Assembly (NCBI RefSeq): GCF_024498195.1 | Contig: NZ_CP101824.1 | Span: forward strand, 2,728,001-2,792,000 | DNA from: Halovivax cerinus | Lineage (GTDB): Archaea > Halobacteriota > Halobacteria > Halobacteriales > Natrialbaceae | Direction: 5' to 3' | Length of the DNA stretch: 64,000 nt | Shown here: in pieces, positions 53,316 through 57,401 of the stretch | Position numbering within the stretch: position 1 is the first letter of the stretch | Layout of the letters: every line of letters begins with the position of its first letter | The notes under the pieces: model-generated | The model's database searches: none | Told to the model about the DNA's origin: nothing | Seen by the model: only the letters and a program-made list of their open reading frames with translations | Made by a program: the position numbers and the translations under genes

Positions 53316-53546
53316 TCAGTCTGCGTTGACGGCGGTCGGCTGACTCGTTCCGGCGGTCGCTCGATGGGTGGCGACGTCGTCCTGCGGGCCATTGATGAAC
53401 AGGGCGTGGCCGATCAGGCCGGTCGCCACGAGTGCGCCACCCGGAATCGCCGTGATCGTCGGCAACCCGGCGACGGTCAACACGGCGGCGATTCCGAGCA
53501 GCGATACCGGAATGAGGGCCAGAACCAGATCGTAGTATCGAGCCAT
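53316..53546 (-). CDS. small two-TM membrane protein
   Basis: A 76-residue protein, MARYYDLVLALIPVSLLG..., with two TM helices (about 6-27 and 32-52) and a hydrophilic C-terminus. A TATA box on the minus strand at 53571-53580 lies about 28 nt before the ATG, which supports the start. Function unknown; small haloarchaeal membrane proteins of this shape are common. Confidence 0.72.
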   Translation of the reverse strand: MARYYDLVLALIPVSLLGIAAVLTVAGLPTITAIPGGALVATGLIGHALFINGPQDDVATHRATAGTSQPTAVNAD

Positions 53547-53970: not shown

Positions 53971-54402
53971 CTACAGCCGTTCCTCACGGGATCGAACGAC
54001 CCATTCGAACGTGAGGCGCGACCCGAGAACAGCGACGGAACCCAGGCCCACCATCACGGCCATGAACGACCACGGCACGTTCCCAGGGGCGACCGGCGAC
54101 CCGCGGATCAGAAAGGCGACGTTCGTCGCGGCGAGCCAGCAGATCAGGACCGACCGGAGGTGCGTTGTGAGTCCGATCCGCCGTCGATCGCGGTACAGGT
54201 TCGAGAGCGTCGCACACCCGATCCAGCCGAGTACGAACGGGGCGATTGTCGCCAGGGCGTACCCCGGATCTTCGATCGGGTCGCCCCGGTGTCTCAGCAG
54301 TCCGAGCAGCGCGAGACCACCGATGACGAAGCTATCGACGGCGAGTGCCCTGATCTCTCCGTTCGCCACCGACTCAAATCGAGTAGGTAATCGCTCGAGC
54401 AC
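53971..54402 (-). CDS. DUF3054-type four-TM membrane protein
   Basis: A protein of about 143 residues with roughly four TM helices (near 24-40, 47-66, 85-103, 113-134) and the conserved-looking FVIGGLALLGLLRHRG and WLAATNVAFLIRGSPV, which fit the DUF3054 family of haloarchaeal membrane proteins. There is no ATG near the proper N-terminus; GTG at 54402 or 54369 must be used, and the much longer frame upstream is a shadow of the neighbouring J-domain gene. The function is unknown. Confidence 0.7.
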   Translation of the reverse strand: MLERLPTRFESVANGEIRALAVDSFVIGGLALLGLLRHRGDPIEDPGYALATIAPFVLGWIGCATLSNLYRDRRRIGLTTHLRSVLICWLAATNVAFLIRGSPVAPGNVPWSFMAVMVGLGSVAVLGSRLTFEWVVRSREERL

Positions 54403-54475
54403 GGTCGTGCGTCGGTGCCCAGGGACTATCCGTGTCTCGATTTCGCAGGAGGTGTCCGGGTCCACGGAGAGCAGA

Positions 54476-54508: not shown

Positions 54509-55171
54509 ATGGGTGTCGCCGACGAGACGCAGCGAGGCTGTGACGGCTGTGACCGGTCCGTCGCGGTGGCCGACCTCACGACCGTCTCGATGCCGGACGG
54601 GACGCTCGTCGCGTGCTGTCCACGCTGTACTCCACACGCCCGTGCAGCCGCGAAACGGGCCGCAGAACTGGATACGACGAAAGGAACCTGTGACGGCTGT
54701 CGAACGACCGTCGCGGAGTCGGATCTGGAGGACGTCGTTCTCACCGACGGCGCCGTGGTCTCCCTCTGTGGGTCCTGCAGGGAGGACCGACCAGGTCGAT
54801 CGAGGACCCCGTCGTCGGGGGTCGCCGATACCGAGACGACGGAGATCGCACGTCGAAAGTCGCTGTGTACCCACTGTCACGAGTGGGTCGACGAGGAACG
54901 CTATCGCGTGACGCTCGTGGACGATCGGGCGGAGAAACTGTGTGAGACCTGCAAGGAGACGGCCGTGGAGACGGGGATCGTCGTCGACGTCTCGATGCGA
55001 CGGACCGACGCGAGAGACATTCTCGGCGTCGACGAAGGCGCATCCACCGCCGCTATTCGATCCGCGTTTCAGACTCAGATCAAGAACGCTCACCCAGATC
55101 GCCCGACCGGCACCAGGGAGGCGTTTCGACTCGTCACGGAGGCCTACGACCGGTTGCGATCGTCTCAGTGA
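54509..55171 (+). CDS. J-domain protein with three CxxC-CxxC zinc ribbons
   Basis: A 220-residue protein (224 if it starts at 54497). Three modules each hold two CxxC pairs: CDGC...CCPRC, CDGC...CGSC and CTHC...CETC; the middle one is followed by a disordered spacer. The last ~60 residues are a J domain with RDILGVDEGAS and the HPD triad in NAHPDRPTG, which should stimulate an Hsp70/DnaK ATPase. Unlike DnaJ, the J domain is C-terminal and there is no Gly/Phe region. This domain order suggests a client- or metal-sensing co-chaperone (inference). Confidence 0.85.
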   Translation: MGVADETQRGCDGCDRSVAVADLTTVSMPDGTLVACCPRCTPHARAAAKRAAELDTTKGTCDGCRTTVAESDLEDVVLTDGAVVSLCGSCREDRPGRSRTPSSGVADTETTEIARRKSLCTHCHEWVDEERYRVTLVDDRAEKLCETCKETAVETGIVVDVSMRRTDARDILGVDEGASTAAIRSAFQTQIKNAHPDRPTGTREAFRLVTEAYDRLRSSQ

Positions 55172-55228: not shown

Positions 55229-55849
55229 TTACGCCGTCTCCGGTGTGGACGCGTCGCGTCTGACGAATCCGATCGTCGCCGGATCGAAGAAGTAGGCGGT
55301 ATCGCAGACGTCGCAGGCCGTCTCGAGCAACTGACCGTGTTTGTGCAGTTTCCAGAGTTTCGTCTGTCCCTCTTCGAGTTCCAGCGTGACCGGGTGACCG
55401 CAGTCGGCCAGCGTACACGGAAACCGGATGTACCAGTTCGGCACCGAAAGCGCCCCGAGGGGGGCGAGCTCGGCTCGCAGCCGACTGAGGAGGTTGAACA
55501 CCGTCACCGTCAGATTCTCACGATTCAGCGTGACGCCCTCGACACCGTCTACGAATCCGCCGCCGAGATCTGCACGCTCGTACAGCGGCAGGACCGGAAT
55601 CCCCTTCGCGATCGCGTAGCCGATCTCCTGGTTGATCCACTTGCTGTCGGCCGACGATTCCGTCAACACCGCGACGACGACGTCGCTGTTGGCGAGTCGT
55701 CCTTCCAGTCGGTCACGGCTCCGTCCGGACTCGACGGCTTCCAGGGCGAGGTGGACGCCAAACGGGAAATTTTTCACCGTCGCGAAGATCTCCTGGACGA
55801 TCGCGAGGTCCGCCGGATCGTGCGAGACGAAGACCTGTTCCCCGGACAT
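55229..55849 (-). CDS. TIR-domain protein with C-terminal zinc ribbon
   Basis: A 206-residue protein. The N-terminal TIR fold (about 1-125) starts EQVFVSHDPADLAIVQEI and contains SDVVVAVLTESSADSKWINQE, where E75 is the candidate catalytic Glu of NAD-cleaving TIRs. The C-terminal part has C145-x4-C150 and C179-x2-C182, a probable zinc ribbon. TIR proteins in prokaryotes often act in antiphage defence by degrading NAD or making signals. No partner gene such as a CRISPR-like or STAND gene lies beside it. Start at 55849 fits a minus-strand AT-rich run about 35 nt upstream. Confidence 0.85.
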   Translation of the reverse strand: MSGEQVFVSHDPADLAIVQEIFATVKNFPFGVHLALEAVESGRSRDRLEGRLANSDVVVAVLTESSADSKWINQEIGYAIAKGIPVLPLYERADLGGGFVDGVEGVTLNRENLTVTVFNLLSRLRAELAPLGALSVPNWYIRFPCTLADCGHPVTLELEEGQTKLWKLHKHGQLLETACDVCDTAYFFDPATIGFVRRDASTPETA

Positions 55850-55995
55850 TTTCGGTTAGTCTACCACGGGTGTACACCATTATTAATGTACCTACATCCC
55901 TCGCAGGGAGGTGATGGTCCTGACTGAACCCCGGTGGGTTTTTAGATTCCAAAGGAGACTGGGTCGAACGATATCGGACGATCGACCGTACCTCG

Positions 55996-56151
55996 CCGAC
56001 CCGTCGGAGTGACGTGACCATCACCGACCCGTCGGAGTGAGTACAATATCACCGACCAGTCAGAGTGGGTACAATACTACCGACCCGTCGGAGTGAGTAC
56101 AATATCACCGACCAGTCAGAGTGACGTGAATACCACAGTCCGTTCAAAGTG
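55996..56151 (+). repeat. 28-bp tandem repeat, five copies plus a degenerate sixth
   Basis: The core CCGACCCGTCGGAGTG or CCGACCAGTCAGAGTG begins at 55996, 56024, 56052, 56080 and 56108, exactly 28 bp apart; a decayed copy at 56136 runs into the end of tpiA. Copies 3 and 5 share the A/A variant while 1, 2 and 4 have C/G, so units were duplicated in groups. The unit is mostly followed by AGTACAATAT. There are no unique spacers, so it is not a CRISPR array. Confidence 0.92.
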
Positions 56152-56788
56152 GGTCGACCAGCGATTCGAGGGCGGCTGCCGGGTCGTCGGCCTTCGCGAC
56201 GCCGCTGGCGAGCAGGACGCCTTCGGCACCGAGCTCGCGGGCGGCCACCACGTCCTGGCCGGTCGAGATGCCTGCCCCGCAGAGGACGGCGACCGACTCG
56301 TCGACGCCGTCGACGGCAGTCACGGCGGACTCGACGATCTCCGGGTCCGCCTGGCTGACTGGCGTGCCGGTCCCGATGAGTGCGGGCGGCTCGATCGCGA
56401 CCGCGTCGGGTCCGAGTGCCGCGGCGGCGGCCGCCTGCTCGGGCGTGTTCGCGCAGACGATCGTCTCGAGATCGGCCCGGTCGCTCGCCGACAGACCCTC
56501 GTCCAGCTGATCGAGGCGGATCCTGTGCTCCGAGTGGTTGAGGAGTGTCCCGGTAGCGCCCGCGTCAGCGACCGATTCGGCGAGTATCGATCCCGTGTTG
56601 CTCCCCGGTTCGATCGGATCCACGTGCTGTGCCCAGGTTTCGACGCCCGTGTCGGCGACCGCGTCGATCGCCGTCGGTTGCGGGGCGACGGCCAGTCGGG
56701 CGTCTGTCGTCGGCTCCACAGCTGCAGCCGCCTCGGCGACCGCGACCTGATCGCACGGATACGTCTTGGTGTTGACGAGGACGAACAT
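56144..56788 (-). CDS. tpiA: triosephosphate isomerase
   Basis: A 214-residue archaeal-type TIM barrel interconverting dihydroxyacetone phosphate and glyceraldehyde-3-phosphate. It starts [15 protein letters not shown] (Lys motif), has the catalytic His in LLNHSEHR near 82, the catalytic Glu in [11 protein letters not shown] near 127, and the phosphate loop [10 protein letters not shown]. Short compared with bacterial enzymes, as is usual for archaea. The start at 56788 replaces a longer shadow frame. Its last codons overlap the degenerate end of the 28-bp repeat block. Confidence 0.95.
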
Positions 56789-56849
56789 ACCCGAACGGCT
56801 TCCGGGCGGCAGGAAAAGCCTTGCGAGTCGGTGGGACGGCGCGAAGCGG

Positions 56850-57401
56850 TCAGTCCTTGCGTTTGACGACGTCGCCGAGCGTGTAGCTGCCGGTGCTCGA
56901 TCCGCCGCTCCACTCGGCGTCCTCGTCGCTCCCGCTGCTTGCGGTGAGCGAGACGTCGAGGAAGCGTTCGAGTTTCGACTGGACGTCGTCGCTCGGGAGC
57001 GTCTCACCGCGCTCGAGTTTTCGGATCAGGCTCGCCTTCTCGTTGAGTTCGTTCGCGAGGTCGGACTGACTCAGGCCCGCCTCCTCGCGTGCCTGTCGGA
57101 TGGTGTCGTCGTAATCCGGCGCCAGTTCGTCCATCTCGTCGAACATGTCCGAACTGCGGCCACCACCGCCGCGACCGCCGGAGGCTCCGCCGGCTCCCGA
57201 CGTGCCGGACGACGACCCGCTGGTCCCGTCGGATCCCGAACTCCCGGTCGAGTACTTCGTCGACGTACTCGAGGTCGAACTCGGCGTCTGCACCTCCGTC
57301 CCGAAGTCGGTACAGTTCGAGCAGACGTCCAGCTTCGCCCCCTCGACCTTGATGGTCTTCGGGGCCTGCGTCTCGGCGCCACACATCTCACACTGAACCA
57401 T
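56850..57401 (-). CDS. multiprotein bridging factor MBF1
   Basis: A 183-residue archaeal MBF1. The N-terminal zinc ribbon has CEMCG and CSNC (C4, C7, C27, C30), a flexible Ser/Gly-rich linker follows, then an XRE-type helix-turn-helix (about 95-150) with [17 protein letters not shown]-like [15 protein letters not shown]. It is a conserved protein thought to act in transcription or in translation on the ribosome. The start at 57401 is the ATG before the zinc ribbon. The linker is longer than usual. Confidence 0.93.

Follow-up and report, generated by a model that had tools for sequence, protein, structure and literature searches.

We analysed a window of 64,000 nt from the Halovivax cerinus genome (contig NZ_CP101824.1, positions 2,728,001 to 2,792,000 of the forward strand), to whose full length all the coordinates given here refer. 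The gene under study occupies positions 55229-55849 of the minus strand, begins with ATG, is conserved across Natrialbaceae and encodes a protein of 206 aa, for which we coined the name TIRzn, as it joins a TIR domain to a zinc module. The TIR domain covers residues 4-130 (55460-55840, minus strand), as assigned by Pfam TIR_2 and by the PDB fold matches of an AlphaFold2 model, and it contains the putative catalytic glutamate E75 (55625-55627, minus strand) of the motif W71-x3-E75, which we singled out for its invariance and its alignment with bacterial TIR NADases. Residues 134-202 (55244-55450, minus strand) make up a C-terminal Cys4 zinc module with C145, C150, C179 and C182, similar to the redox switch of Hsp33.

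A TATA-like box, ATTAATAA, is located at -38 to -31 (55880-55887, minus strand) and is read here as TIRzn's own promoter. Since a TATA-like match is present about 29-40 nt upstream of the start in most of the loci, TIRzn is probably transcribed on its own, as a separate transcription unit. In this sense the original prediction, made from the letters of the same DNA, was right that the gene stands alone, but its gene context is strongly conserved. The conserved upstream neighbours, both on the minus strand and both recognized by eye from their translations, are the genes for triosephosphate isomerase (TIM, 56144-56791) and for an MBF1-like protein (56850-57401). On the other side, convergent with TIRzn, lies the gene that we call ZnJ (54509-55171, plus strand), coding for three C-x2-C pairs followed by a C-terminal J domain with HPD, and considered a candidate partner. 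Two membrane proteins, predicted by eye at 53971-54465 and 53316-53546, adjoin ZnJ in most Natrialbaceae.

The block of 28-bp repeats pointed out on the promoter side of the gene is real and consists of five tandem copies (55996-56136, no strand) between the TIM and TIRzn genes. We found no copy of the repeat elsewhere in the Halovivax genome or in the fetched loci of the relatives and, as it is confined to one place in one genome, it is probably incidental; we thus rejected it as a part of the TIRzn system. Several other Natrialbaceae (loci L011, L012, L013, L024 and L087) have a short gene between TIM and TIRzn, which codes for about 130-145 aa and has the motif LENRLMSHGIY. Judging from the gap lengths, it is widespread but apparently absent from Halovivax; in this genome the repeat block lies there instead.

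The assignment of the TIR domain, already proposed in the original prediction, goes beyond chance, with a TIR_2 match at E 1.5e-10 (42.1 bits, against a Pfam cut-off of 28), which is also the sole TIR_2 match in the 3.9-Mb Halovivax genome. ThsB_TIR was above its Pfam cut-off as well (E 7.9e-7, 29.9 bits), and the PADLOC ThsB models matched at 2.5e-6 or weaker, with partial coverage. In the AlphaFold2 model of TIRzn (mean pLDDT 83) the first ~140 residues resemble the TIR structures of SARM1, SPARTA, RPS4, AbTir and ThsB, with Z of 11-13; deoxyribosyltransferases and DNPH1, which have the broader fold in common with it, also matched the model. E75, in the segment S-K-W-I-N-Q-E, had been proposed as a catalytic-type glutamate, and profile alignments agree, as W71-x3-E75 falls on the catalytic W-x3-E of the NAD-cleaving bacterial TIRs. 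Every haloarchaeal member (68/68) and every methanogen member (20/20) has this residue. The TIR domain is apparently intact as an enzyme domain, of the kind by which NAD is cut in immune and cell-death responses, and an enzymology of the NAD type is plausible.

The methanogen members came from a deeper search of Halobacteriota with a profile built from 31 haloarchaeal TIRzn members, in which full-length matches, some 190 aa long, came up in methanogens of the Methanosarcina and Methanothrix types, a class that we take to include Methanosarcina acetivorans C2A. Alignment of the haloarchaeal and methanogen profiles with hhalign gave a probability of 99.3% over 182 columns, spanning both domains. 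The two archaeal classes are about 25% identical, yet E75 and the four cysteines are unchanged; precisely, E75, G77, R125, W139, the four cysteines and T192 were invariant in all the 51 divergent members, of which 31 are from haloarchaea and 20 from methanogens. The haloarchaea alone retain W71, which the methanogens have lost, and the first cysteine pair is C-x4-C in the former and C-x2-C in the latter. No conserved neighbour gene was found at the methanogen loci. In the Methanothrix-type genomes we also observed additional degraded or truncated copies, chiefly of the zinc-module end (L148, L149 and L150-L153); we had considered these as free-standing domains consisting of the ribbon only, a reading that we rejected.

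The cysteines C145-x4-C150 and C179-x2-C182 are as had been described, and all four were invariant in the 68 haloarchaeal members. The accompanying idea of a zinc ribbon stands as far as a Cys4 module is concerned; a generic nucleic-acid-binding ribbon is a less apt description than a module like the Hsp33 redox switch. When a profile of the module only was searched against all PDB sequences, the top match was the zinc domain of E. coli Hsp33 (1xjh, E 3.6e-5), Hsp33 1i7f had an E of 0.001 and the nearest match other than Hsp33 was at 0.015. The hhalign comparison of the module with eleven Hsp33 switch domains gave 95.4%, E 1.9e-8 and a score of 42.9. With haloarchaea and methanogens taken separately the scores were 34.0 and 31.3, against a null, obtained for each group by shuffling the non-Cys columns and preserving the cysteines, with a mean of about 11.7 and a maximum of 24.2. 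In the reverse search, the Hsp33 profile placed TIRzn members at ranks 1-45 among 17,171 ORFs, a background that was drawn from the fetched loci and includes zinc-finger proteins. Each of the 34 zinc modules scored with the Hsp33 profile exceeded the 99th percentile of its Cys-preserving shuffles.

A zinc domain of the PyrI_C type was considered as well, as some methanogen modules match PyrI_C (best E 9.9e-6, in one member). The PyrI control in hhalign was far lower than Hsp33 for the haloarchaea and for the whole set, and we rejected this candidate on hhalign probabilities of 1.5-45% versus 85-95% for Hsp33, lower still with the full alignment. Foldseek and VIA-align, run on the isolated 69-residue module modelled without zinc, returned only noise, and Hsp33 was not among the matches. 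As regards the cysteine motifs of Hsp33 (CxC and CxxC), CxxC is present in TIRzn and CxC is absent, and the N-terminal chaperone domain of Hsp33 is absent too, residues 1-130 being the TIR domain. An alphaproteobacterial Hsp33 (L175) ends in C-x2-C-x3-Y-V-L-D-P-T-T-L-G-F, similar to the Y-x-F-D-P-A-T-I-G-F of the haloarchaeal TIRzn. These profile comparisons point to a likeness between the module and the redox-switch domain of Hsp33 that is new here; we call it Hsp33-switch-like, and not Hsp33, because CxC is missing and the fold searches of the module gave no significant match. We found no published description of the TIR-zinc pair in the open-access papers searched.

TIRzn was present, in one copy each, in 94 of the 391 Halobacteria genomes. 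Natrialbaceae account for most of them (87 of the 101 genomes sampled from this family), and outside this family the gene was found in one genus of each of two other Halobacteria families; nearly all the named relatives are Natrialbaceae, such as Halovivax, Natrinema, Natrialba, Natronorubrum and Haloterrigena. In Haloterrigena sp. H1 (L043) the copy is out of frame past about residue 132, owing to either a pseudogene or a sequencing error. The gene order hisC-AK-pgsA-MBF1-TIM-TIRzn, converging on ZnJ, is kept at most loci and also in a second family, and the protein distances of TIRzn track the distances obtained for the genes on either side (r 0.52-0.75). The viral contigs searched yielded no relative, and the sole full-length match in the plasmid collection was a 987-kb Natrinema record. 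TIRzn is a resident, vertically inherited archaeal gene, family-wide and not universal in haloarchaea. The original prediction had set a universal distribution and a housekeeping context against a defence role; the context is indeed housekeeping, and the distribution is family-wide rather than universal.

A strong ZnJ match (E of at most 1e-18, those next in rank being 1e-11 or weaker) was present in 79 of the 94 TIRzn carriers in Halobacteria and lacking in the other 15, versus 2 of the 297 non-carriers, counts that ignore shared ancestry and adjacency, from which much of the signal comes. The zinc pairs and the HPD J domain were conserved in 45 ZnJ sequences. Both genes are present but far apart in f10 g67 and in the Natrialbaceae genus f1 g18 (our labels). 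The co-occurrence is suggestive of a functional link between ZnJ and TIRzn.

An antiphage role, in which TIRzn would deplete NAD or make a cyclic-ADPR signal upon infection, was part of the original prediction and is in keeping with the ThsB_TIR and weak PADLOC ThsB matches, and with the many prokaryotic TIRs known in general as antiphage enzymes. It fared poorly against presence in most Natrialbaceae, housekeeping synteny and the lack of viral relatives. The conserved neighbours are TIM, MBF1, pgsA, AK, hisC and ZnJ, without a Thoeris effector ThsA (SIR2-SLOG or other), and the methanogens have no conserved neighbour at all; a STALD/ThsA search of 21 genomes gave zero matches, with a control that was likewise silent, and we give it no weight. 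As a single-copy, syntenic and vertically inherited gene, without a relative in the viral contigs and with a single full-length one in the plasmid collection, TIRzn is unlike a mobile defence gene, and we dropped the reading of a mobile defence island on synteny and distribution. TIRzn may have a resident immune role, and we regard antiphage defence as quite improbable. Much the same can be said of a nucleotide or nucleoside N-glycosidase similar to DNPH1 or the 2'-deoxyribosyltransferases, acting in salvage or sanitation with a purely structural zinc module. The E-I-G-x-A motif and the PDB sequence and fold matches to 7m5h, 7o62 and human DNPH1 are in its favour, but the match to Nuc_deoxyrib_tr (PF05014; E 2.1e-4) has 21.9 bits, below the gathering cut-off of 28.8, TIR_2 is far stronger, and the residue aligned with the Asp that precedes the catalytic Glu of these enzymes varies among TIRzn members.

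Slightly better placed, and still improbable, is a housekeeping enzyme of RNA turnover, in which the TIR would remove nicotinamide from NAD-capped transcripts (deNAMing) and the zinc module would bind RNA. The archaeal TcpA and several bacterial TIRs carry out such a Glu-dependent removal from NAD-RNA (PMC10937652), NAD-RNAs are present in Haloferax volcanii (PMC10663502), and this role is consistent with vertical inheritance and with the absence of a partner operon. Nevertheless, the top match of the zinc module is the Hsp33 switch and not an RNA-binding ribbon, the archaeal TIR TcpO is without activity on NAD-RNA (PMC10937652), and TIRzn is missing from most haloarchaeal families. We give equally little weight to a non-catalytic scaffold, in which the TIR would serve to assemble a complex, and chaperone or stress-protein interactions would involve the zinc module together with ZnJ. 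Many TIRs are adapters, W71 is lost in the methanogens and ZnJ co-occurs with TIRzn, all of which fit this role, whereas a glutamate kept in every divergent member is unusual for an adapter.

The explanation that we tentatively prefer, while placing it below even chances, is that TIRzn is a resident TIR glycosidase of NAD or an NAD-type substrate, which a zinc/thiol switch restrains until oxidative or zinc stress frees it. Hsp33 becomes active when its cysteines are oxidized and zinc is lost, as its switch then unfolds, and its clients are handed to DnaK/DnaJ (PMC7423844). For TIRzn, the architecture, the conservation and the inheritance are observed, and catalysis, substrate, gating and the ZnJ link are inferred. 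By this scheme, the TIR, with E75 as catalytic residue, would most likely cleave the nicotinamide-ribose bond of NAD+ or of an NAD derivative, and the module, when zinc-bound and reduced, would most likely keep the TIR off; oxidation or zinc loss would let the TIRs assemble and turn over NAD, resulting in an oxidative-stress signal or a controlled shutdown. In haloarchaea, ZnJ is probably tied functionally to TIRzn and could, for instance, reset or restrain it. The zinc/thiol-switched reading is weakened by the replacement of CxC, as the thiols may then react differently and the role of zinc may be purely structural, by the loss of W71 and of any conserved neighbour in the methanogens, by the isolated-module fold search without Hsp33, by the PyrI_C matches and by the carriers that lack ZnJ. 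In its most specific form, i.e. an ancient, vertically inherited TIR NADase with an Hsp33-type zinc/thiol domain that senses oxidants directly, signals or triggers a controlled shutdown and has a dedicated J-domain partner in haloarchaea, it is rather unlikely.

Prokaryotic TIR enzymes have been studied mostly as mobile antiphage weapons. A core TIR long kept by two archaeal classes together with a redox-switch-like domain would, if this reading is true, represent a native, non-mobile TIR pathway, for which Methanosarcina and Natrialbaceae relatives offer genetically tractable hosts. The Hsp33 switch is the best-studied protein redox switch, and TIRzn, again if the reading is true, would tie oxidative stress directly to NAD cleavage.

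Among the known systems, TIRzn shares with the TIR NADases (SARM1, AbTir, TcpB/BtpA and the archaeal TcpA) the TIR fold and a glutamate similarly placed in the motif, which reads W-x3-E in haloarchaea, but it has an Hsp33-like zinc module, with which no member is described in the open-access papers searched. Thoeris ThsB, a TIR that produces cyclic ADPR, is likewise a small TIR protein, whose Pfam family TIRzn matches above the cut-off, whereas TIRzn has no adjoining ThsA, is a core syntenic gene and carries an additional zinc domain. With the nucleoside 2-deoxyribosyltransferases and DNPH1 it has in common a related fold and the E-I-G-x-A motif, and it differs in being below the family cut-off and in the variable position before the Glu. 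The likeness to the Hsp33 (HslO) switch consists of two cysteine pairs about 30 residues apart, the second a CxxC followed by Y-x-F in the haloarchaeal members, and of a significant profile similarity; TIRzn differs in having C-x4-C or C-x2-C in place of CxC, in being fused to a TIR and not to a chaperone domain, and in being archaeal, whereas Hsp33 has been reported as absent from archaea (PMC7423844).
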